From a virus, in the IMG/VR virus record IMGVR_UViG_3300032668_000165, positions 1-20,419 of that record: a stretch of DNA of 20,419 bases. The stretch is one strand, 5' to 3'. A program made the translations under genes and the position numbers. Under the pieces are notes generated by a model. That model ran no database searches. It worked only from the letters and a program-made list of their open reading frames with translations, and was not told the DNA's origin. Below, one piece after another: positions 3,460 to 19,668 of the stretch; within the stretch, counting starts at the first letter, position 1, and each line of letters begins with the position of its first letter.

Positions 3460-4338
3460 ATGTCCAGAATTACTCTTGATAAAATAGAATTCTACATCAC
3501 CAATGTTTGTAATTTAGCCTGTTCTCACTGCAATAGATTTAACGATTATCATTTTACCGGTTGGCAACGCTGGTCTGACTATGCTGATGATTATGCGTTA
3601 TGGTCTAAGTATATTGACTTCAAAAAAATAACAATCCTAGGTGGTGAGCCATTGCTTAATCCTACCATTACTGAATGGATCAAAGGTATTAATCAACTAT
3701 GGCCTGATGCTATTGTGCAAGTACTGACCAATGGCACACGCCTCAACAATGTAGACGGATTGTATGAACTGATGCCAACGGGCACAAGAAATTGGTTGGG
3801 TATAAGTTTACACAATGAATACAATGAAGAAGAAATTTTTACAGAAGTAAAAAGTTTTTTAAAAGGACAAGTCACAGTCCTTGAAGGCAAAAATTCAAAC
3901 TCAGCCGGAGCAGACTGGCTGTATCGAGATGAAAATGGAGTACAAATTGGTATCTGGCGCCAGGATACTTTTGCTCGAGCCGCACTGACCTATACCGCTG
4001 ATAATAAACTAACACTACACAACAGTGATCCGTATCTGGCACATCGTAGTTGTGGATTTGCCACTTGGAAAAATTATCATCTAATTCGCGGAAAATTGTA
4101 CAAGTGTGGACCGGTAGCACTTTTCCCAGAGTTTGACCAGCAACATCCTTTAGAACTATCTCCAGAGGACAGGCAGTTGATCAACAGTTACCAACCATTA
4201 TCCGCCCAGGAGTTTGAAACTCGCGGTGCAGAGTTTTTGGCTAATATAGATAATCCCTTAGCACAGTGCAAATTTTGCCCAGAACGCTATGAAACTGAAA
4301 AGATCTTTGCTATACGCAAAGGTAGCAAAAAACCATAA
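3460..4338 (+). CDS. Radical SAM protein with C-terminal auxiliary-cluster cysteines
   Basis: The 292-residue protein carries the radical SAM signature CNLACSHC (Cys17, Cys21, Cys24, the CX3CX2C ligands of a 4Fe-4S cluster), the GGEP SAM-binding motif at 61-64 (ILGGEPLLNP), and later strand motifs VLTNGT and GISLHN. Four further cysteines (198, 216, 270 and 273, the last pair as CKFC) could hold a second, SPASM/twitch-like cluster. The expected chemistry is reductive cleavage of S-adenosylmethionine to make a 5'-deoxyadenosyl radical; the substrate cannot be inferred. Proteins with this 'CxRFNxYxFTGxQRW' segment are, as I recall, present in T4-like phages of aquatic bacteria without a known role. 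The ATG lies nine bases after the previous stop and has no Shine-Dalgarno sequence. The gene ends inside the promoter of the gp13 gene. Confidence 0.85.
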   Translation: MSRITLDKIEFYITNVCNLACSHCNRFNDYHFTGWQRWSDYADDYALWSKYIDFKKITILGGEPLLNPTITEWIKGINQLWPDAIVQVLTNGTRLNNVDGLYELMPTGTRNWLGISLHNEYNEEEIFTEVKSFLKGQVTVLEGKNSNSAGADWLYRDENGVQIGIWRQDTFARAALTYTADNKLTLHNSDPYLAHRSCGFATWKNYHLIRGKLYKCGPVALFPEFDQQHPLELSPEDRQLINSYQPLSAQEFETRGAEFLANIDNPLAQCKFCPERYETEKIFAIRKGSKKP

Positions 4339-7338: not shown

Positions 7339-7693
7339 CATCAACAACACAGTTTAGGCATATTGTTTTTAAATTGCGTAAACCAGTGTTGTTTAAATTT
7401 CCGTCAATGTGAAATACTAACAGCTGAGCTGAATACTTAGCTCTAAATCCACAGCGGTCACAGGCCGCTTTTTTCTTGTACCCAGCCTTGACCCAACGAG
7501 CTTCTGGCGGCTTTTGTTTGCGCCCTCGTTTGATACAGTGTTCACACCTACTACGATAGTGAGTAACTCCGTCTTTGTGATAGTTTACAGCGCAAAAACG
7601 CTGTGTACAAGCGGTGCATAAGGGTCTGTCCATGGTATATTTACCATTAAACCTTGGCCAAAGGGATGGTATATCGTAATATTTTTGTCGCAT
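7286..7693 (-). CDS. Small zinc-cluster, HNH-like protein
   Basis: A 135-residue basic protein with nine cysteines, eight of them in CxxC pairs: Cys26/29, Cys50/53, Cys78/81 and Cys112/115. The C-terminal part, VFHIDGNLNNTGLRNLKTIC then CLNC, has the shape of an HNH/endonuclease VII-type core (His95, Asn102, Asn107, and a CxxC zinc pair). The residue after the last pair is Val where many HNH proteins have His, so activity is uncertain. The N-terminus (LWPRFNGKYTMDRPLCTAC) and GYKKKAACDRCGFRAKYSAQ look familiar from uncharacterised proteins of T4-like cyanophages. The gene is inserted on the opposite strand between gp1 and the tail sheath, overlapping gp1 by 53 bases. Its ATG is seven bases downstream of a TAATAT box and has no Shine-Dalgarno sequence. 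It may be a DNA-binding or homing-type protein. Confidence 0.75.
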   Translation of the reverse strand: MRQKYYDIPSLWPRFNGKYTMDRPLCTACTQRFCAVNYHKDGVTHYRSRCEHCIKRGRKQKPPEARWVKAGYKKKAACDRCGFRAKYSAQLLVFHIDGNLNNTGLRNLKTICLNCVVDVKKADLPWKPGDLLPDA

Positions 7694-7695
7694 TC

Positions 7696-7703
7696 GCTAA
7701 ATA
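7696..7703 (+). promoter_or_regulatory. Late promoter-like box GCTAAATA before tail sheath
   Basis: GCTAAATA matches the late box in its TAAATA core. The predicted start near 7709 gives a leader of about 21 bases with AAGGA (7718-7722), seven bases before the ATG at 7730. It lies in a 36-base divergent interval shared with the HNH-like gene. Confidence 0.5.
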
Positions 7704-7706
7704 TTA
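7701..7706 (-). promoter_or_regulatory. -10-like box for the HNH-like gene
   Basis: On the minus strand TAATAT ends seven bases before the ATG at 7691-7693. There is no convincing -35 box. The distance matches the leaderless promoters at 2010 and 2293, which is the main support. Confidence 0.3.
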
Positions 7707-7729
7707 CTATTAATAAAAAGGATTTAACC

Positions 7730-10700
7730 ATGACTTTACTATCGCCTGGCGTCCAAGTTACTGTAGTTGACCAAAGCAATTACTTACCTGCACCAACTAA
7801 TTCAGTGCCATACATCTTGTTGGCAACAGCTTCAAATAAAGTATCCGGAGTCGGAACTGGTATTGCTCCTGGCACACTAGCCGCGAATGCAAACCAATTA
7901 TATTTAATCACTAGTCAGCGTGATTTGGCTTCTGTATACGGCGTACCATTCTTTTATCAGACAAGCAACGGTACTCCAATCAATGGATATGAGCTTAATG
8001 AATACGGATTGTTAGCAGCCTACAGTGCTTTAGGTGTAACTAACCAGTGCTATGTACAGCGTGTCGATATTGACTTGGCAGCGTTGACAGCTACTTTGGT
8101 TCGTCCTACAGGCACTCCACCTAACGGAACTTATTGGTTAAACACAAATACAACAAAATGGGGAATCTTCCAGTGGAATCAAGTTACAGGCGCATTCACT
8201 AATCAAACTCCTATTGTTATTACAAATACAGATCAAATTAGTGGTGGTATCCCAGCACAGACAGTTGGTAGTATTGGTCAATATGCTGTTAATGCTACCA
8301 GCATTTATAATCCAATTTATTTTAAAACTGGTGCGGCTAACAGCACACAAACTACTGCGACTTATCTAAGTAATCTTTACAACACTTGGGTACAGATTGG
8401 TAGTGCAGATTGGGAGCTTAGTTTCCCAACAGTGCAAGGCACATTGACACCAACATCCTTGACAGCCGGTAATACATTTATTATCAATGGCACAACAATT
8501 ACAGTACCAGCCGGTCCAAATAACACCGTTGCTGGAGTAGCTGCCGCTATTAACAGTGGAAGTATTAGTAATGTCTATGCGGCCGCTATTAATGGCGCAC
8601 TACAAATTTTTGCTACTACAACTGCACTTAATGGCACAGTAGTTATTGCCAATGGCGCAGGTACAGCTCTAACACAGTTGGGCATTACTGCTGGCACATA
8701 CAATCCACCAGCTTATCAAGCTAGTCCTAGTTATGTAGTTCCAAACTGGAACACTTACAGTACCAGTCCAGCCGGCGGATCACCTACAGGTTCTGTTTGG
8801 ATTAAAACATCCAATGTTAACCTAGGCAGTGATTTCAACATTAGCAAATGGAATTCTACATTAGGTGTATGGGTTCCACAGTCATGCCCAGTATATGCTA
8901 GTGATGCACAGGCAATTTATGCCTTGGATCCAAGCGGTGGCGGTCAATTAATTCCTGTAGGCACAACTTATGCTCAGGTCAATTCTAATACAGGATATCA
9001 AGCAGACTTCCGTATTTTTGAACGCTATGCAACTGGACCAACTATTATTACTGGTACAACAACTAGTCCAACATTCCCTCCTATCACAGGTACACCTACT
9101 AGTTTCTACTTGAGTGCAACACAACCAGAAACAGCAACAGTAACCGCACAAGTAAATGTTCCAGTGTTAGCACAAGGTAGTACTACTGGTACACCTACTG
9201 CCGCCGACTTTGTGGCTGCCGTTAGTGCTGCCGCAGTTCCTTATGTAACAGCTTCTGTAAGTAGTACAGGTGCATTAGTATTGACACACTCATTGGGTGG
9301 CGATATCTATGTAACTAACCATGTAGGTAGCCCAATTACTGCCGCTGGTTTCAATACAAATTGTGTTGGCGCTATTCAGAATCAAACAGCTACTGGATTG
9401 ATTTTAAGTAACTGGGCTACTGCTCCAACATTTACATACTCAGCTAGTGATGTTGCTCCAGATCAAGATCCAGCAACAGGTACATACTGGTATTACAGCG
9501 ATCCTACACAGGCGGACATTATGATTCAAAATAATGGTCAATGGGTAGGTTATCAGACAGTTAGTACAGATGTTCGCGGATACAATTTAACATTGTGTAA
9601 CGCTACAGGTCCTATTATTTCAACCACAGCTCCTACAACACAGACTAACACTAGTAAGAGTCCATTGGTTTATGGAGATTTGTGGATTGACACTAGCGAT
9701 TTAGAAAATTATCCAATGATCAATCGTTGGCAGAATGTCAATGGAGTTGATCAATGGGTTGCAATTACTAACACAGATCAAACTACAAGTAATGGTGTAT
9801 TGTTTGCAGATGCTCGTTGGGCACCAAATGGTACAACAGATCCAGTAGCTGATCCAATTCCAACTATTCAAAGTTTGTTAACAAGTAATTATTTAGATCC
9901 AGATGCACCAAGTCCAGATCTATATCCAGATGGAATGTTGCTTTGGAATACTCGTCGTAGTGGTTTCAATGTTAAAACATATCAAGCTAACTATTTTAAC
10001 AACCAAGCATATCCTGCTTACACATGGTCAGCAAGTACATCATACGCTATTGGCGCATTAGTTACTTACGGTGATCCTGCTATTGTTTATATCTGCTTAC
10101 AAGCAAATACTAATCAAGAGCCAGATACACAAACTGCATATTGGAGCCCAATCACTGTTACTAGTACATGGTTAACAGCTAGTGGTAATAGAGCTGACGG
10201 TAGTCCATATATGGGTCGTCAAGCTCAAAGAGCAATTATTGTTAAAGCTCTTAAAGCTGGTATCAGTACAAATAGTCAAATTCTTGAAGAACAGAATCAG
10301 TTTAACTTGATTGCCTGCCCACAATATCCAGAATTGGCACCAGACATGGTAGCATTGAACAATCAGCGTAACAATACTGCATTTAGTATTGTTGATACAC
10401 CATTGCGTTTAAGCCCAGCTAATGTAGTTGAGTGGGCCACAAACAATAATGGCTTAGGTTTACCAACAGGCGATGGTCTGTTAGTTGGTGACGAGTACGC
10501 TGGAGCATTCTACCCAAGTTGCCAAACTAATGATTTAAGTGGTAACACAGTTGTTACAGCACCTAGTCATATGATGGTTCGTACTATTATCCGTAGTGAT
10601 GCTGTTGGTTATCCATGGTTAGCACCTGCTGGTGTAAACCGCGGTGTAGTTGACAATGCTAGTGCAATTGGTTACCTAAACGAAACAACAGGCGAATTTG

Positions 10701-11158
10701 TTCAGTTAGGCGTAAATCAAGCTCTGCGTGATGTATTGTACGAAAACGATGTAAACCCAATTACATTTATTCCTGGCGTTGGTATTACTAACTTTGGTAA
10801 TAAGACAACAACTAGTGTAACAACACTATTGGATCGTATCAATGTAGCTCGTTTAGTAGCATTTGTTCGTGGTCGTTTGTCAGTAATTGCTAAACAGTAC
10901 CTGTTTGAACCAAACGATCAAATTACTCGTAATTCTATTGCTAGTGCAATTACAAGTTTGATGATTGATCTTGTGGCAAAACGCGGTATCTATGACTACT
11001 TGGTAGTTTGCGATACATCAAATAACACACCAGCAACCATTGATGCTAATGAATTGTTTGTAGATGTTGCTATTGAACCAGTAACAGCAGTTGAGTTTAT
11101 CTACATTCCAGTCATTATTGAAAATACTGGAGCGATAGCGGGTAGCCAAACAGCGTAA
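7730..11158 (+). CDS. 18: Tail sheath protein gp18, with large insertions
   Basis: A 1142-residue contractile tail sheath subunit. The N-terminus MTLLSPGV matches that of T4 gp18 (MTLLSPGI), and residues about 740-1142 form the conserved sheath body and C-terminal domain (GNRADGSPYMGRQAQRAI, GDEYAGAFYPS, PWLAPAG, then VARLVAFVRGRL). T4 gp18 has 659 residues, so roughly 450 are extra. The extra part holds two flagellin-IN-like beta modules (about 237-325 and 456-542), four Trp-centred repeats around Trp136, Trp357, Trp587 and Trp652 (pattern G-x-x-W-x-x-T/D then W), and a CBM5/12-like module at about 763-808. The ATG at 7730 is chosen over an in-frame TTG at 7685 because AAGGA sits seven bases upstream and the protein then begins as gp18 does. 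Sheath subunits stack around the tube and contract to drive infection. Confidence 0.93.
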   Translation: MTLLSPGVQVTVVDQSNYLPAPTNSVPYILLATASNKVSGVGTGIAPGTLAANANQLYLITSQRDLASVYGVPFFYQTSNGTPINGYELNEYGLLAAYSALGVTNQCYVQRVDIDLAALTATLVRPTGTPPNGTYWLNTNTTKWGIFQWNQVTGAFTNQTPIVITNTDQISGGIPAQTVGSIGQYAVNATSIYNPIYFKTGAANSTQTTATYLSNLYNTWVQIGSADWELSFPTVQGTLTPTSLTAGNTFIINGTTITVPAGPNNTVAGVAAAINSGSISNVYAAAINGALQIFATTTALNGTVVIANGAGTALTQLGITAGTYNPPAYQASPSYVVPNWNTYSTSPAGGSPTGSVWIKTSNVNLGSDFNISKWNSTLGVWVPQSCPVYASDAQAIYALDPSGGGQLIPVGTTYAQVNSNTGYQADFRIFERYATGPTIITGTTTSPTFPPITGTPTSFYLSATQPETATVTAQVNVPVLAQGSTTGTPTAADFVAAVSAAAVPYVTASVSSTGALVLTHSLGGDIYVTNHVGSPITAAGFNTNCVGAIQNQTATGLILSNWATAPTFTYSASDVAPDQDPATGTYWYYSDPTQADIMIQNNGQWVGYQTVSTDVRGYNLTLCNATGPIISTTAPTTQTNTSKSPLVYGDLWIDTSDLENYPMINRWQNVNGVDQWVAITNTDQTTSNGVLFADARWAPNGTTDPVADPIPTIQSLLTSNYLDPDAPSPDLYPDGMLLWNTRRSGFNVKTYQANYFNNQAYPAYTWSASTSYAIGALVTYGDPAIVYICLQANTNQEPDTQTAYWSPITVTSTWLTASGNRADGSPYMGRQAQRAIIVKALKAGISTNSQILEEQNQFNLIACPQYPELAPDMVALNNQRNNTAFSIVDTPLRLSPANVVEWATNNNGLGLPTGDGLLVGDEYAGAFYPSCQTNDLSGNTVVTAPSHMMVRTIIRSDAVGYPWLAPAGVNRGVVDNASAIGYLNETTGEFVQLGVNQALRDVLYENDVNPITFIPGVGITNFGNKTTTSVTTLLDRINVARLVAFVRGRLSVIAKQYLFEPNDQITRNSIASAITSLMIDLVAKRGIYDYLVVCDTSNNTPATIDANELFVDVAIEPVTAVEFIYIPVIIENTGAIAGSQTA

Positions 11159-14363: not shown

Positions 14364-14972
14364 ATGAAACATTTCAGACAATACTTGGCAGAATCAGAAA
14401 AAACCTACAATTATCGTATCAAAATTGTAGGTGAGGTTGATGCAGGCTGGCTCAAGCAGTTAGAAGCCAAATGTCAACAGTTTGACATTGTTAGTTTTGG
14501 TAAACCAAAAACTACTCCTGTGCAATTAGCACCTCAGGATTTTCCAAATCACAAAAACGATTCAGTAACATCAATTGATGTTGAATTCCGTTATCCAGCC
14601 ATCGAGCCACAGATCAAACAACTAGCACAGTTATTGTTTATTGATCCAAATCGTATTATCATGTTGACTACTCCACATGAGAACAGTATGGATGCTGAGC
14701 GCGAAAAGATTGCTACACAGAATAAAGATTTGTTAAAAGACACAGACTATCCAGCTGATGATGCAGAACAACAAGCATTGAAGAAAGATTATTCAGCACC
14801 CTATGATGAACACGCTGTTCTACAAAATGCATATCGCAGTGATTTCACTGTGGCAGGTGGCAAGACTCCGCCAGCAAGAACTACCAATGACGAGCCAATG
14901 GGCAACAAGAGTCCAATGACTAAGATGACTCGCACACCTAAGCCAGCTACTGGCGCACAACCAAGAGGATAA
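14364..14972 (+). CDS. Candidate internal head protein with capsid-targeting-like N-terminus
   Basis: A 202-residue protein. Its first ten residues, MKHFRQYLAE, followed by Ser, match in length and pattern the capsid targeting sequence of T4 internal protein III (MKTYQEFIAE, then Ala, as I recall it), which directs proteins into the prohead and is removed by protease gp21 after L/I-x-E. Next comes a compact alpha/beta domain (YNYRIKIVGEVDAGWLKQLEAKC, VTSIDVEFRYP, IKQLAQLLFIDPNRIIMLTT). From about residue 110 it is a low-complexity charged and then Pro/Thr/Lys-rich tail (TKMTRTPKPATG). Late promoter, Shine-Dalgarno site and position after gp16 mark it as a late gene. The targeting claim is inference from the motif; the domain itself is unknown to me. 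Confidence 0.75.
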   Translation: MKHFRQYLAESEKTYNYRIKIVGEVDAGWLKQLEAKCQQFDIVSFGKPKTTPVQLAPQDFPNHKNDSVTSIDVEFRYPAIEPQIKQLAQLLFIDPNRIIMLTTPHENSMDAEREKIATQNKDLLKDTDYPADDAEQQALKKDYSAPYDEHAVLQNAYRSDFTVAGGKTPPARTTNDEPMGNKSPMTKMTRTPKPATGAQPRG

Positions 14973-14976
14973 TAGC

Positions 14977-16851
14977 ATGACATTTTTTTACGATTTAAAC
15001 AAGAAGTTAGTAGCGTTAGAAGCTAAACATAAAGATGAACAGTTAGCTGAAAGTGCTCCTGCTACTGAAAGTAAATTCTCTAAGTTGGCCAAAGAAATTG
15101 GCAAGAATCCAAAAGTAAAAAATCCAGCGGCAGTAGCGGCTACTATTGGTCGTGAAAAATATGGCCAGAAGGCAATGACAGCTAAAAGCGTTGCTGGTAA
15201 GAAAAAGGCACACGAAGAGCTAGATGAAAAATTTGAACAGCCTGTAAAAATTAATCCTGAAAAGAAAGGCATGTTCAAAGGCAAAACCAACGCTGAACTA
15301 ATGAAACAGTTAAGTCACCTTAAGGCAACTGGTCCACATGAAAAAGGATCTGAGGCGTATACCAAGATGAAAGAATTGCAGTTTGCTATCCGTGCTAAAT
15401 CAGGTTGGGGCAAAGTTAGCGAAGGCACATGCCCAAGTTGCCATTGCAATCCATGCGAGTGTGTAGAAGAAGGTAACGCATTTACTGGAAAGTTAGCACA
15501 CACACCTAAAGGCGGCAAGTTTAAATTAGGTAACAAAGAATTTACAGATACTAGTAGTCTTGAAGAAGCTGATGTAGTAAGTCTTGAAGATAAAAAAGCT
15601 AAACCAGACTATATCGATCTTGACGGCGATGGTGACCGTAAAGAGTCAATGAAGAAGGCAGCCGCTGATAAGAAAAAATCTAGAAGTGCTGGTACAGCAT
15701 TTGATCCAGAAGTGGCCAAATCAATGTTTGCTCACAAAGATGAGCACCCACGTCACGATGTTAAAGATACTGGATACAGTAAGCGTTATACTCGCAAGCA
15801 TGATCAGGACATGGATAAAGACGACGAAGTTAAGAGCAATGAGCCAAAGAAAAAAGGCCGCCCAAACGGACCAGCCAAGGGACCTGAGCGTACTACCAAA
15901 CATGCTTACAAGCACAAAGGTGAACGCAAGGTTAAAGAAGATGAAGAGTATGATGCCGAAGGCGATATGGCCAAAGGCGACATGCACACAGTTATTCGTC
16001 ATGCTCGTGAATTAGAAAAGCATCTTAGAGATAATGATAATTTGCCAACTTGGGTAATTGAAAAATTAGGTCAAATCAAAGGCATGATGACTAGTGTTTC
16101 CGACTATATCATGAGTGAAAAAGAGCGTGGTATTGAAAAAGCCACTGGCGAAGAAGGTATTGCTATTGGTGAAAAAATCACTAAGAAAACTCCAGCAGGC
16201 GAAATCATCAGTGACTTTGAAAAAAGCAAGAACAAAAAGTTTGCAGGTAAGAGTAAAGAAGAACGCAAAAACCAAGCTCTAGGTGCTTACTATGGTATGC
16301 ATCCAGAAAAGTCTAAGAAGAAAAAAGAAGTTGAAGAAACAACTACCGCCGGTAGTGTTGCAACTGCTCCAGCCGCTCCTGCCAAGTCTGGTGGTATGCA
16401 ATTTGGTAAAGGTGTTTACGAAAGTTTAGATCGCCAATTTAAACAAGCACTAACAGAAAGTATTCAAGTACAAGAAAATGTTGAAGAGTGTGGTATGGAA
16501 ATGTCCGCTCCTAGTGCTCCTAGCGTTACAGTAACAGCAGATGGTGAAGAAGCTATCAAGTTAATGGCCTTGTTAAAGTTGGCAGGACTCACTGGCGAAC
16601 AAGCAGTTGAAGAAGCCTACGGCGACACAGACGAAACTAAAAATGAACCAGATTGGCCAACAGACAAAGAAACTACCGGTAACAATGACGAGCATTTACG
16701 CCGTTGGTCCGCTGGCCTAAACGGTCCTAAGAGCACTGGTCAAACAACTATTCCTGTTGTGGCAAGTCAGTTACGCCGTCAAACTAGCATGGAAGAAAAT
16801 GTAGAACTTGAGCGTTCATTGTTCAAGACCTGGAAAAATTATAAAGGTTAA
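14977..16851 (+). CDS. Large highly charged protein with Ca-loop and Cys cluster, probable internal or structural protein
   Basis: A 624-residue, very Lys/Glu/Asp-rich protein with little hydrophobic content, probably largely disordered or helical. Visible elements in order: the N-terminus with LAE-Ser at 23-26 (a gp21-type cleavage pattern); KNPAAVAATIGREKYG at about 48-63; a cysteine cluster CPSCHCNPCEC at 152-162; LEE-Ala at 195-198 (another cleavage pattern); the acidic loop DLDGDGD at 214-220, the DxDxDG calcium-binding pattern; a basic stretch to about 320; a helix HTVIRHARELEKHLRD at about 337-352; KNQALGAYYGMHPEK near 431-445; LTE-Ser at 492-495; and an acidic C-terminal part ending TWKNYKG. 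A site AGAGGA precedes the ATG. Location among capsid-targeted candidates and possible cleavage sites suggest a scaffold or internal head protein. The function is not established. Confidence 0.75.
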   Translation: MTFFYDLNKKLVALEAKHKDEQLAESAPATESKFSKLAKEIGKNPKVKNPAAVAATIGREKYGQKAMTAKSVAGKKKAHEELDEKFEQPVKINPEKKGMFKGKTNAELMKQLSHLKATGPHEKGSEAYTKMKELQFAIRAKSGWGKVSEGTCPSCHCNPCECVEEGNAFTGKLAHTPKGGKFKLGNKEFTDTSSLEEADVVSLEDKKAKPDYIDLDGDGDRKESMKKAAADKKKSRSAGTAFDPEVAKSMFAHKDEHPRHDVKDTGYSKRYTRKHDQDMDKDDEVKSNEPKKKGRPNGPAKGPERTTKHAYKHKGERKVKEDEEYDAEGDMAKGDMHTVIRHARELEKHLRDNDNLPTWVIEKLGQIKGMMTSVSDYIMSEKERGIEKATGEEGIAIGEKITKKTPAGEIISDFEKSKNKKFAGKSKEERKNQALGAYYGMHPEKSKKKKEVEETTTAGSVATAPAAPAKSGGMQFGKGVYESLDRQFKQALTESIQVQENVEECGMEMSAPSAPSVTVTADGEEAIKLMALLKLAGLTGEQAVEEAYGDTDETKNEPDWPTDKETTGNNDEHLRRWSAGLNGPKSTGQTTIPVVASQLRRQTSMEENVELERSLFKTWKNYKG

Positions 16852-16856
16852 TTAAA

Positions 16857-17366
16857 ATGAGTGAGGCAAATGTCTACACATCAGTATCAAATGCAGTTTG
16901 GTATACTGACAAATGTGAAATAGTAACAGAAACTGCTGTAAGCTATAATGTTTACTTGGTAAATGTAGCACAACCGATCGTATTTGGTGGTTATGTAGCC
17001 AACGGTAGTGCCAATCTTACTACCTCACTACAAACTACTGCCAATATTGTTGGTGCTAGTTTTAAAGTTGGCAATGGTATTGCGGCAAATACAACAGTAT
17101 CATCGGTTACTTATAATCCGCAAGGACAAATTACCACAATCACTTTAAGTGCAAATGCTACAGCCAATGTTGGTAATGCTACATCTTATGCTCAGTATAC
17201 ATTAACACTGCCAGCTCCAGGAAATCTTTATAGTGGACCTGTGCAAGTTGCTGCCAATAGCCGTCAACAGATTTATGTTGGTGCTGGCAATTATTTGACA
17301 ATCACTGGCAATGGATTTAGTGCTAGAGAATTAGGTACAGCAAGTTCGGCAACCGCAGGATTCTAA
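16857..17366 (+). CDS. Beta-rich virion protein candidate
   Basis: A 169-residue protein with many Ala, Asn, Thr, Val and Gly residues in alternating strands, with one Cys and few charges. Residues about 48-100 contain the pattern FKVGNGIAANTTVSSVTY, then ITTITLSANATANV, a repeat type common in phage tail and capsid-surface proteins (glycine, 'GI-x-x-x-TTV', then 'ITLS-x-x-AT'). The N-terminus ANVYTSVSNAVWYTD and the C-terminus RQQIYVGAGNYLTITGNGFSARELG are also strand-rich. It is preceded by AAAGG at 16843-16847 and starts three bases after the previous stop. It has no capsid-targeting-like N-terminus, unlike its neighbours, so an outer head decoration or fibre-type role is as likely as an internal one. 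No family is recognised. Confidence 0.7.
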   Translation: MSEANVYTSVSNAVWYTDKCEIVTETAVSYNVYLVNVAQPIVFGGYVANGSANLTTSLQTTANIVGASFKVGNGIAANTTVSSVTYNPQGQITTITLSANATANVGNATSYAQYTLTLPAPGNLYSGPVQVAANSRQQIYVGAGNYLTITGNGFSARELGTASSATAGF

Positions 17367-17368
17367 TC

Positions 17369-17725
17369 ATGCGAGCTCGCGAGTTCATTACCGAAGCTAA
17401 TTTTGATAAAGATCATCAATTAGCTATTCCAGGTGCAGAAAAATATATGGGATTAGATAATTCTAATCCATACCATATGTGGAGATACATTGTAGCTACT
17501 GGTGCCAGAGACGGCAAAGGCAACGGTTACAAATTACCACTTGAAGGTCCAACCGGGCAAAAATTAACAACGGTCGCATACAGCAAAGAGGATGAAGAAA
17601 TACTTCATGACACTGCTAAGATGCTTGGATTTAAACCTACCAAAATGAGCAATCGAGACTCTAAAGAGCCAGACGAAATTCATCGTGTTAGCCCAGTTAA
17701 AGGATTCAAAGGGTATGCAAGATGA
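17369..17725 (+). CDS. Capsid-targeted paralogue 1 (internal head protein candidate)
   Basis: A 118-residue protein, first of four tandem paralogues. The N-terminus MRAREFITE followed by Ala fits the T4 capsid targeting sequence (M-K/R ... F-I-x-E, then a small residue), with cleavage expected after Glu9. The body has LDNSNPYHMWRYIVATGA, GPTGQKLTTVAYSKEDEEIL and AKMLGF, and it ends SPVKGFKGYAR. Paralogue 3 shares LDNSNPY, GPTGQK and VAYSK, so these two are the closest pair. AGGA at 17357-17360 lies eight bases before the ATG. The stop overlaps the next start as ATGA, and AAAGGG inside the codons of the C-terminal motif stands eight bases before that start. A role as an injected protein comparable to T4 internal proteins is inference. 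Confidence 0.8.
   Translation: MRAREFITEANFDKDHQLAIPGAEKYMGLDNSNPYHMWRYIVATGARDGKGNGYKLPLEGPTGQKLTTVAYSKEDEEILHDTAKMLGFKPTKMSNRDSKEPDEIHRVSPVKGFKGYAR
17708..17713 (+). promoter_or_regulatory. Ribosome-binding site inside the paralogue 1 C-terminal motif
   Basis: AAAGGG encodes part of FKG in the conserved C-terminus and sits eight bases before the ATG of paralogue 2. The equivalent AAAGG at 18429-18433 serves paralogue 4. Paralogue 3 has only ACGGA at 18077-18081. Confidence 0.6.
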
Positions 17726-18096
17726 GAGCCCGAGAGTTTATAGCTGAACAAGTTGGTGTAATGACCGACTATCAAAGTTCTCCTATGAAAGGGGCCGAGA
17801 TGGTACGAGATGGTGACAACATTGATCGCACCTATCACATGAATCGATTAATGATGGCCATGGCCATGGCTGATGGTAAAGATCGCAAACCGGTTAAAAT
17901 GGATGATTCTGGTTGGACTGAAAAGTTTAATACTGTTCACCCATATACCGAAGAAGAACACAATATGTTGCACCAGGCTATGGGTGCAATTAGTACAGAA
18001 CATGTATCAGGTTTTAAAAATCATCACTCAACTGAACCTAAAGATGTGCATAAAATAAGTCCAGTCACTGGATTCAACGGATATGCACGAAAATGA
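17722..18096 (+). CDS. Capsid-targeted paralogue 2 (internal head protein candidate)
   Basis: A 124-residue protein starting MRAREFIAE followed by Gln, with the same capsid-targeting-like N-terminus (IAE is identical to the last three residues of the T4 IPIII signal). The body is the most divergent of the set: RTYHMNRLMMAMAMADGKD, DSGWTEKFNTVHPYTEEEHN, then LHQAMGAI. It ends HKISPVTGFNGYARK, keeping the family C-terminus. His is frequent. It overlaps paralogue 1 by four bases and its stop overlaps paralogue 3 by four. I recall proteins with 'MAMAxxDG ... HPYTxEE' bodies among unannotated T4-like phage proteins, which suggests this copy belongs to a wider family; a search would settle it. Confidence 0.8.
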   Translation: MRAREFIAEQVGVMTDYQSSPMKGAEMVRDGDNIDRTYHMNRLMMAMAMADGKDRKPVKMDDSGWTEKFNTVHPYTEEEHNMLHQAMGAISTEHVSGFKNHHSTEPKDVHKISPVTGFNGYARK

Positions 18097-18446
18097 GAGC
18101 TCGCGAATTTATCACTGAAGGTTTTGAAGAAAAACTAAGTCAATCCGCTATTGAGGCAATACCGGGAATGGAAAGATTTAATGCCTTAGACAACAGTAAT
18201 CCTTATATGATGTGGAGATTCATTGTTGCGGCAGCAGGCGAACCAGATTTTCCAATGGACCGTTCGGGCCCAACTGGACAAAAATTTGTTACTGTAGCCT
18301 ACTCTAAAGCTGATAAAGAAATTATTGATGCCACCGCAAAGACAATGGGAGTGACTGGAACGCAAATTAGCACAGCGGCTTCTGAAGAACAACCTGGAAC
18401 TGGAATAACCAGCCCTATAAAAGGCTTTAAAGGCTACCCAAGATGA
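18093..18446 (+). CDS. Capsid-targeted paralogue 3 (internal head protein candidate)
   Basis: A 117-residue protein starting MRAREFITE followed by Gly, the gp21-type cleavage pattern. The body has IPGMERFNALDNSNPYMMWR, FIVAAAGEPDFPMDRSGPTG, VTVAYSKADKEIIDATAKTM, and the ending ITSPIKGFKGYPR. It is closest to paralogue 1. The upstream site is weak (ACGGA at 18077-18081), so translation probably depends on coupling to paralogue 2 through the ATGA overlap. AAAGG at 18429-18433, within its own C-terminal codons, is nine bases before the next start. Synonymous codon differences from paralogue 1 in the shared N-terminal motif show that the protein sequence, not just the DNA, is conserved. Confidence 0.8.
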   Translation: MRAREFITEGFEEKLSQSAIEAIPGMERFNALDNSNPYMMWRFIVAAAGEPDFPMDRSGPTGQKFVTVAYSKADKEIIDATAKTMGVTGTQISTAASEEQPGTGITSPIKGFKGYPR

Positions 18447-18829
18447 GAGCTAGCGAATTTATCACTGAGGCCAAGCGTGGAAAATTAAGCGCAGATGAAT
18501 CAAGACCAATGCGCGATACATTTTTCCTTCCTGGCATCCGTAATAACGATGCTTACAAAAGTTATAGATTAAGTTTAGCATTTGCTCGAGCTCGTGTTGA
18601 CAATGCAGGATATGGAGATGAGCTTCCAGAATGGAACGAGCAAGGAGCATTAGGACCATATGCTGTAGTATCAGTAGTAGGAACCAATGGAGAGGACCTA
18701 GTCGATCAGGCATTAAAAATGACCGGGGTTCCGGGTGGAAAAATTAATGTAGCTGGTAACAGTAGTTCGGAGCCAGCTGATGTAAATAAATCTAGCCCAG
18801 TTGCAGGATTTAAGGGCTACGCAAGATAA
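18443..18829 (+). CDS. Capsid-targeted paralogue 4 (internal head protein candidate)
   Basis: A 128-residue protein starting MRASEFITE followed by Ala, the fourth copy of the capsid-targeting-like N-terminus. The body contains PGIRNNDAYKSYRLSLAFAR, LPEWNEQGALGPYAVVSVVG, NGEDLVDQALKMTGVPGGK, and it ends VNKSSPVAGFKGYAR. The central segment aligns with the others at the 'PG-x(6-9)-N-x-x-Y-x-x-x-R' and 'D-x-A-x-K-M/T-G' positions. It is the last of the tandem set; its stop (TAA) does not overlap the next gene, yet the C-terminal GFKGYAR is still present. That argues that the motif is kept for the protein and not only as a ribosome-binding site for a downstream copy. Confidence 0.8.
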   Translation: MRASEFITEAKRGKLSADESRPMRDTFFLPGIRNNDAYKSYRLSLAFARARVDNAGYGDELPEWNEQGALGPYAVVSVVGTNGEDLVDQALKMTGVPGGKINVAGNSSSEPADVNKSSPVAGFKGYAR

Positions 18830-18843
18830 CAAAGGAAAATAAA

Positions 18844-19668
18844 ATGAAAAAAATTATAACAGGGCTATTATTAGTTCTAGCAACAAGTACTGTATTTGCC
18901 TGGACACAACGTCAACCGTTTCCTCCAGCACAATGTCAAGCACACGCACCATACGGATTCCCAGAATCAGCTAAACCAATTCAACCATTATGCCAACAAG
19001 CATATTTGGTAGGGTACGATGCACAGGCAAAATTACCAGAATTTGTTATGTATGAGTTAACTCCTCCTAATGCAATAGGTTGTGTTGCCCGTACTAATGC
19101 ATTTGCCGCTAACCAGTTTGTTCAAAATGGAGCAACACCAGCTGACTATGCTGGCACAGGCTACGACAAAGGACACATGGCACCAGATGGTGACTTGTCA
19201 TGGAACACACAAGTTGAGTTTGAAAGTTTTTTGATGACAAACATGAGTCCACAAGCAGGTTCTTTAAATCGTGGCATCTGGAAATTACTAGAGACCAGTG
19301 TTCGTGGTTGGGCTGTACAACGCAACCAGTCGTACACAGTTATCGCGGGTGGTTTGTATGGTCCTGGTGATAAGACAATCGGTAAAGGTGTAGTTGTACC
19401 ACATGGCTTTTACAAGATTGTAATCAACAATCAAACTAAAGAAGTAGCTGGTTGGGGATTCCCACATACAGCACCATATCCAAACTTAGGCAATGACTTA
19501 ACTAAGTTCCGTGTACCTGTTGCTACTATTATGGCAGACGCACAAGTTAAGTATGCATTACCACAAGGCTATGTTGAATTAGCACCAGGTAAAGAATGGC
19601 CAGTTGATTTTGGTGCATTGACTAATGCTAAACGAGCTAAGTGTGGTGCTAACGCATCAGATGACTAA
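18844..19668 (+). CDS. Secreted DNA/RNA non-specific endonuclease (NUC family)
   Basis: A 274-residue protein with a clear Sec signal peptide: MKK, a hydrophobic core (IITGLLLVLAT), then VFA with cleavage expected after Ala19. The mature part is a beta-beta-alpha-metal nuclease of the Serratia/NucA family. The DRGH box appears as DKGHMAPDGD, with catalytic His111. Asn142 (LNRGIWKLLE) is the metal ligand, and Glu150 and Arg154 keep the +8 and +12 spacing of Serratia nuclease Asn119, Glu127 and Arg131. Four cysteines (31, 50, 80 and one near the C-terminus) could form disulfides in the periplasm. AAAGGA (18831-18836) is seven bases before the ATG. It should cleave DNA and RNA outside the cytoplasm, which would keep it off phage DNA during packaging. 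A signal-peptide nuclease within a T4-like head/packaging block is unusual. Its role (host or rival DNA breakdown, or lowering lysate viscosity) is unknown. Confidence 0.9.
   Translation: MKKIITGLLLVLATSTVFAWTQRQPFPPAQCQAHAPYGFPESAKPIQPLCQQAYLVGYDAQAKLPEFVMYELTPPNAIGCVARTNAFAANQFVQNGATPADYAGTGYDKGHMAPDGDLSWNTQVEFESFLMTNMSPQAGSLNRGIWKLLETSVRGWAVQRNQSYTVIAGGLYGPGDKTIGKGVVVPHGFYKIVINNQTKEVAGWGFPHTAPYPNLGNDLTKFRVPVATIMADAQVKYALPQGYVELAPGKEWPVDFGALTNAKRAKCGANASDD

Follow-up and report, generated by a model that had tools for sequence, protein, structure and literature searches.

Why should tandem proteins that differ in their middles carry nearly identical ends? The question is raised by four paralogous genes, encoding proteins of 117-128 amino acids (aa), that span positions 17369-18829 of a 20,419-base IMG/VR virus record (IMGVR_UViG_3300032668_000165), the whole of which is referred to here as the window. 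A preliminary description, made from the letters alone, had pointed to a near-identical C-terminal tag on all four proteins, to its double use as the ribosome-binding site of the next gene and to a probable protein role. The analysis reported here suggests, with a probability of roughly 0.6, that the products of all four genes are small internal proteins of a T4-like phage head, targeted to the capsid, and that the tag codons also serve as a Shine-Dalgarno (SD) site where the next start codon falls at the stop. The array consists of the following elements.

17369..17725, + strand: copy 1 (118 aa; open reading frame (ORF) and alignment)
17722..18096, + strand: copy 2 (124 aa; ATGA overlap with copy 1)
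18093..18446, + strand: copy 3 (117 aa; ATGA overlap with copy 2)
18443..18829, + strand: copy 4 (128 aa; ATGA overlap with copy 3; stop TAA)
17369..17395, + strand: leader MRAREFITE of copy 1 (putative capsid-targeting sequence (CTS), predicted cut after E9)
17722..17748, + strand: leader MRAREFIAE of copy 2
18093..18119, + strand: leader MRAREFITE of copy 3
18443..18469, + strand: leader MRASEFITE of copy 4
17690..17722, + strand: tag SPVKGFKGYAR of copy 1
18058..18093, + strand: tag SPVTGFNGYARK of copy 2
18411..18443, + strand: tag SPIKGFKGYPR of copy 3
18794..18826, + strand: tag SPVAGFKGYAR of copy 4
17708..17712, + strand: AAAGG within tag 1, 9 bases 5' of the copy 2 ATG
18429..18433, + strand: AAAGG within tag 3, 9 bases 5' of the copy 4 ATG
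18831..18836, + strand: AAAGGA in the gap that separates copy 4 from the nuclease gene (18844), whose own site it is

The tag was confirmed at all four places, and a degenerate DNA pattern for it gave exactly 4 matches in the window and 0 in 100 shuffles. The four copies share the C-terminus SP[VI]xGFxGY[AP]R, in which copy 2 has an additional K, and the N-terminus MRA[RS]EFI[TA]E; their middles are divergent as had been claimed, with only 34-54% identity to copy 1. Homologues of copy 1 showed 48-92% identity, and two loci (L135 and L136) contain a 100% identity match to copy 4. The ATGA stop/start pair occurs at joins 1-2, 2-3 and 3-4. The AAAGG described for copies 1 and 3 lies at 9 bases in both, and copy 2 has AACGG instead, 12 bases 5' of the copy 3 ATG. 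Copy 4 is tagged and has no overlapping downstream gene; its tag is left out of the ribosome-binding role, the downstream gene using the AAAGGA at 18831-18836.

The extent of the family was determined in IMG/VR. Viral contigs were scanned for SPVxGFKGY, using the tag alone without the N-terminus, and separately for the leader alone; each scan covered 120 stretches, so that the counts are lower bounds. The loci overlap, the window's four copies are included where the window was scanned, and the leader counts exclude loci already obtained through the tag scan. At least 133 tag matches were found, and 133/133 of those listed sit 9-17 residues from a stop codon; an MRAxEFIxE-type leader lies 90-140 residues upstream of the tag in 122 of the 124 listed matches with a visible start. 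A profile built on the tag-bearing ORFs recovered at least 354 ORFs across the gathered loci, at least 277 of them unique with an assigned start, and after exclusion of 18 at contig edges 259 entered the context counts. The leader expression, ending in L/I-x-E type, was matched by 258 of the 277 unique members. Alignment of 129 diverse members shows M1, A3, E9, E100 and S108 to be invariant (129/129), with F6 kept in 127 and I, V or L at position 7 in 129 (V in 15). Where both flanks were visible, 45 singles, 70 pairs, 6 triples and 3 quadruples were counted, and tandem junctions showed the exact 4-base overlap in 103/113. Between 1 and 3 family copies were present in 14/14 large phage contigs searched with the profile, contigs that had been chosen for tag or leader matches.

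Comparisons with named sequences yielded little. No Pfam or PHROGs family matches more than 1/129 members, tblastn with five different members against 50,697 phage records gave no match, a DNA search of phage records gave no family match, and the tag pattern had 0 matches in bacterial and archaeal genomes. The best hit by sequence in the PDB (E 0.0097) was judged to be chance. A search of open-licence literature for the family peptides returned nothing relevant, the string matches being unrelated by title, and one for capsid-targeting combined with metagenomes found nothing. On these searches the family is new within a known kind of protein, and its C-terminal element possibly so.

The stand-alone copies bear directly on whether the tag matters to the protein. 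The preliminary description had proposed looking at genes that stand alone, and had held that absence of the tag wherever no paralogue follows would reduce it to a by-product of the ribosome-binding site; the tag was found to be present in such genes. FxG[YFLW] occurs in 38/46 stand-alone copies, and the remaining 8 carry a basic tail, mostly after SPV. More broadly, the tag or a variant of it is kept in 105/113 members before a paralogue, in 65/71 before another gene at the stop, in 58/69 with a start 7-60 nucleotides (nt) on and in 6/6 with no following start. Because stand-alone copies retain the tag, it is not a mere ribosome-binding-site by-product, and the conservation pattern supports a protein role for it.

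What this role may be is suggested by charge. The tail from the conserved Ser onward is net positive in 250/255 members and negative in 0, and the body is net negative in 196/255, with mean net charges of +2.9 for the tail and -2.5 for the body. FxGY is absent from 20/258 members, all 20 of which still have a positive end. Our best guess is that the tag acts as a charge-based docking tail. Three other ideas were rejected: a C-terminal cut by a gp21-type protease at S98-x-E100, where the residue two before Glu is Ser and not Leu/Ile; a general head signal, as 69 other proteins with the same leader (described below) are without the tag; and a tail that the family would have in common with the T4 internal proteins (IPs), whose C-termini differ.

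The proposal that the tag doubles as a ribosome-binding site was assessed on 226/259 members with FxGY within 3 residues of the end, using an offset of -4 for paralogue junctions. Relative to the synonymous expectation, the anti-SD pairing energy was lower by 0.58 kcal/mol with a paralogue at the stop (-0.58, n=99) and by 0.62 kcal/mol with another gene at the stop (-0.62, n=64), and higher by 0.21 with a start 7-60 nt on (+0.21, n=57). At 12 or 24 codons upstream, SD-like pairing was avoided in all three context classes. A difference was seen in the FxGY glycine codon, which is purine-ending (GGR) in 100/163 members with a start at the stop vs 10/57 without (odds ratio 7.5); all other Gly codons of the same proteins showed no difference (400/1457 vs 129/488). 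Within arrays, the inner copy had the purine and the last copy did not in 26 pairs, the reverse held in 3 and there was no difference in 17. The lysine codon showed no context effect; an earlier no-tuning reading drawn from its AAA:AAG ratios (71:20 vs 92:25, the second group mixing other-gene-at-stop with true non-followers) was reversed because the context classes were then split. The claim is supported with one reservation: synonymous codons shift to SD pairing only with a start at the stop, and after phylogenetic correction the evidence for a ribosome-binding role of the tag is no more than suggestive.

The N-terminal leader, missed in the preliminary description, is probably a T4-type capsid-targeting sequence. 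In the public record T4 ipII and ipIII begin MKTYQEFIAE, and the family leader keeps E-F-I-x-E with the spacing seen in IPII/IPIII; T4 ipI begins MKTFKEFTST, the motif being absent at that place. T4-type leaders have about 10-19 residues and end in L/I-x-E; with 9 residues, the family leader is one shorter than the shortest of T4. A review describes the first 10 residues of T4 IPIII as sufficient for packaging, residues 4 and 7 of the T4 leader as serving targeting and residues 8 and 10 as serving processing, gp21 as cleaving after L/I-x-E, and T4 as injecting Alt, an ADP-ribosyltransferase (PMC9026906).

The leader is also found on other proteins. Among the 115 complete new matches listed from the leader-only scan, 56 belong to the tag family, 40 of those with FxG[YFLW]. 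At least 69 dissimilar non-family proteins of 65-503 aa carry it as well, and their alignment is conserved only in the leader. Pfam matches among these 69 include an ADP-ribosyltransferase domain (E 9.5e-13), GNAT domains, class I chitinase (6), LysM, ParB_N and DUF6321 (4), and PHROGs matches include endolysins (6) and the host-transcription-inhibiting kinase family phrog_15752 (4). The 69 proteins are net basic (mean +5.9), whereas background ORFs are net acidic (-5.2). In the large contigs, 15 non-family leader proteins were found, some overlapping with the 69, and three have a GNAT match; in contig G015, two members of the tag family coexist with four further leader genes.

Several of these genes lie in groups. 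Clusters of dissimilar MRAxEF[IL]xE-type leader genes, partly ATGA-joined, were observed at L220:5135-7946 (-), L222:1405-5690 (-), L178:1303-3199 (+), L151:2414-4901 (+) and L152:10569-12193 (-); they resemble cassettes of head-delivered proteins, and that in L220 includes an ADP-ribosyltransferase domain. A recurrent basic leader protein with an ending of AMADMLAGKYIKIYG type was observed at L162:4362-5099 (-), L239:3133-3846 (-) and L202:3825-4529 (+); Pfam relates it weakly to a metallopeptidase-like family (E 0.012), a hit that is probably not meaningful.

A protease of the kind that would remove the leader was also sought. PF03420 (gp21-type, Peptidase_S77) was detected in 11/17 large contigs and 0/14 control genomes. 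In 3/3 genomes read, the major head protein (phrog_138) carries candidate L/I-x-E cleavage motifs within its first 50 residues. Beside the major head protein gene, adjoining ORFs at L278:1577-2557 and L279:827-1615 appeared by eye to be of homing-endonuclease type.

The assignment to internal head proteins is made because the EFIxE motif matches T4 IPII/IPIII, the leader is shared by the 69 other proteins, a gp21-type protease was found in 11/17 of the large contigs and the array lies in the head/tail gene block. On this assignment, MRAxEFIxE would target the protein into the prohead core, and a gp21-type protease would remove the leader after E9, as in T4 IPII/IPIII. With its acidic body ending in the basic tail SPVxGFKGYxR, the mature protein (about 110-120 residues) would be held in the head, most likely through contact of the tail with DNA or the acidic core, and may then be delivered with the genome. 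When the next gene starts at the stop, the FKG codons appear to be its SD site, as the biased synonymous positions suggest statistically.

A number of observations weigh against this proposal. PF03420 was not found in 6/17 large contigs, also by protein query, all of which may be fragments; the window itself is a 20 kb fragment. The mature family proteins are near neutral (mean net charge +0.45; median isoelectric point 7.1), unlike the basic T4 IPs. Following E9, Q, G or D is often found in place of A. The 69 leader proteins were selected by the leader pattern, and some of the short ones may for this reason be chance matches; informative Pfam names are limited to a minority of them all. Chitinase- or endolysin-like proteins, which make up 6/69, are unexpected as injected cargo. 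An AlphaFold2 (AF2) model of a family protein reached a predicted local distance difference test (pLDDT) score of 87 and a predicted template modelling (pTM) score of 0.58, and fold searches with this model gave no match. For the codon effect, a tree of the middles gave phylogenetically independent pairs that agree 8.1 to 1.8 (about 8 to 2; median p 0.09, from no more than some 10 informative pairs). When the synonymous null is left out, the group difference in SD pairing reaches only p 0.07. Within the window itself, the Gly codon follows the rule in copy 1 (GGG) and is GGC in copy 4, where no start falls at the stop; copy 3 breaks the rule with GGC, and copy 2 has AAC GGA.

Several alternatives were considered. 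A purely nucleotide explanation, in which the tag is a by-product of ribosome binding and its peptide is conserved because the next gene needs the nucleotides, would fit both the AARGG found 9 (82/109) or 12 (21/109) bases before the next ATG in arrays and the codon bias towards SD pairing. It is rejected on the stand-alone copies and is hardly credible: these copies keep the motif or a basic tail, S108 is present in 129/129 rows, the same residues are encoded by GGR and GGY, AAA and AAG, and TAT and TAC alike, and without a start at the stop the peptide persists while the SD codon bias vanishes. Recent gene conversion between tandem copies, instead of selection, could likewise have made their ends alike, as the copies lie head to tail with divergent middles. 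The same ends, however, recur across contigs in many copies of about 25-40% overall identity, and synonymous codons differ even between neighbours in the window, which makes conversion very improbable.

Two further explanations concern the protein itself. The chief rival for the tag takes it as the last segment of a folded domain that packs on the core, conserved for folding and docking nothing. This is quite possible: among 286 ORFs with a tag-like string none lies outside the family (in loci that had been selected for a tag, a leader or similarity), it is missing from the 69 other leader proteins, AF2 confidence in the tag stays at 77-84, and E100 and S108 are invariant. However, no helix or strand is predicted in the tag, and the sequences that replace FxGY in 20/258 members are unrelated and share only positive charge, unlike a packed core segment. 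For the leader, an uncleaved recruitment peptide or a fixed adaptor to another part of the virion, such as the tail or neck, has to be considered. The surroundings of the array, where tail tube, head closure and terminase genes lie, the six contigs in which PF03420 was not found and the varied residues after E9 would agree with such an adaptor, but EFIxE and its spacing to the Glu are identical to those of T4 IPII/IPIII, E9 is invariant, and the proteins sharing the leader include host-takeover enzyme classes. An adaptor is considered unlikely, and a capsid-targeted internal head protein is preferred.

With regard to evolution, the ends of the copies are fixed at both the protein and the DNA level, and copies could therefore be added or lost in frame together with their translation signals. 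The earlier suggestion that the copies are interchangeable units has only circumstantial support: arrays vary from 1 to 4 copies, at least 23 switches between first and last position were counted on a poorly resolved tree, and 9/69 unrelated leader proteins also run by ATGA into another leader start.

The window holds a structural block of a T4-like, jumbo-phage-like genome, in which a head-tail adaptor, a tail sheath, two tube proteins, head closure and the start of the terminase large subunit could be named. The array is flanked by the large charged protein and gene 16857-17366 before it and by an endonuclease gene after it.

14364..14972, + strand: head-cluster gene with a second CTS-like leader, MKHFRQYLAE followed by S (homologue in Pseudomonas phage PA5oct annotated 'structural protein', electrospray ionization tandem mass spectrometry (ESI-MS/MS))
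14977..16851, + strand: gene for a large charged protein, 5' of the array (presumed from this position to be 'core or structural')
16857..17366, + strand: gene directly upstream of the array
18844..19668, + strand: DNA/RNA non-specific endonuclease gene, PF01223

Of the 186 family loci, many of which do not extend far enough to include these genes, 83 have a homologue of the 16857 gene upstream of the array and 0 downstream; the corresponding counts are 75 and 2 for the 14977 gene, and 46 and 0 for head closure. A homologue of the endonuclease (18844-19668), the start of which resembles a signal peptide, lies downstream of the array in 50/186 loci and on the opposite strand in 5. Also within the structural block, the ORF at 3460-4338 looks like a candidate radical SAM enzyme, with spaced cysteines near its N-terminus. 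The tail sheath (7685-11158; 1157 aa) is unusually long and has the Pfam sheath domain only at its C-terminal end; the best-listed homologues among named jumbo phages align over 63-69% of its length, and the best-scoring named relatives are Atu_ph07, PA5oct and Phosso.

Being present in 14/14 of the large contigs searched, which had been chosen for tag or leader matches, the family would be a common yet unnamed component of environmental T4-like phages. Should the leader prove to be a capsid address, a short pattern would flag injected proteins from metagenomes, which is otherwise hard. We put forward only tentatively, as a somewhat doubtful extension, that many uncultured T4-like or jumbo phages pack head proteins with two addresses, a cleaved leader and a permanent basic docking tail, the leader being a general zip code for replaceable injected host-takeover enzymes; were this true, MRAxEFIxE in metagenomes would list injected phage effectors. 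The tag itself offers a clean natural example in which one stretch encodes a conserved peptide and, depending on context, a ribosome-binding site; the stand-alone copies serve as built-in controls.

Among known phages, PA5oct resembles the window in gene order around the sheath, tubes and head closure and has a homologue of the 14364 gene (31% identity, E 2e-16). In the stretch read it differs in having no array-family member, the large structural protein being followed by what appeared by eye to be a terminase-like start. Its homologue of the 14364 gene has a similar start without the LxE motif, and PA5oct does not itself support cleavage at this type of leader because the motif is absent.

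The closest known parallel is offered by T4 IPI, IPII, IPIII and Alt. As in T4, the proteins are small and present in several copies, a short leader has EFIxE at the spacing of IPII/IPIII, the leader is found on unrelated proteins including one with an ADP-ribosyltransferase domain, and a protease of the L/I-x-E family was found in 11/17 of the large contigs. The family differs in its 9-residue leader MRAxEFIxE, in its conserved C-terminal tag and in an acidic body with a basic tail, whereas the T4 IPs are basic throughout. Its genes lie in the structural block, whereas those of the T4 IPs lie near e and the tRNA genes, and unlike the T4 IPs it is covered by no Pfam or PHROG family.

At the level of translation, the array resembles ATGA-coupled systems: the overlap has 4 bases, and an SD site falls within the coding end of the preceding gene. 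Such internal SD sites and coupling through an ATGA overlap are treated as general features of prokaryotes (PMC6728339, PMC2784483) and are not new. The array differs from such overlaps in that the upstream end is here also a conserved peptide, and therefore codon choice is the main freedom left, a choice that shifts with context.

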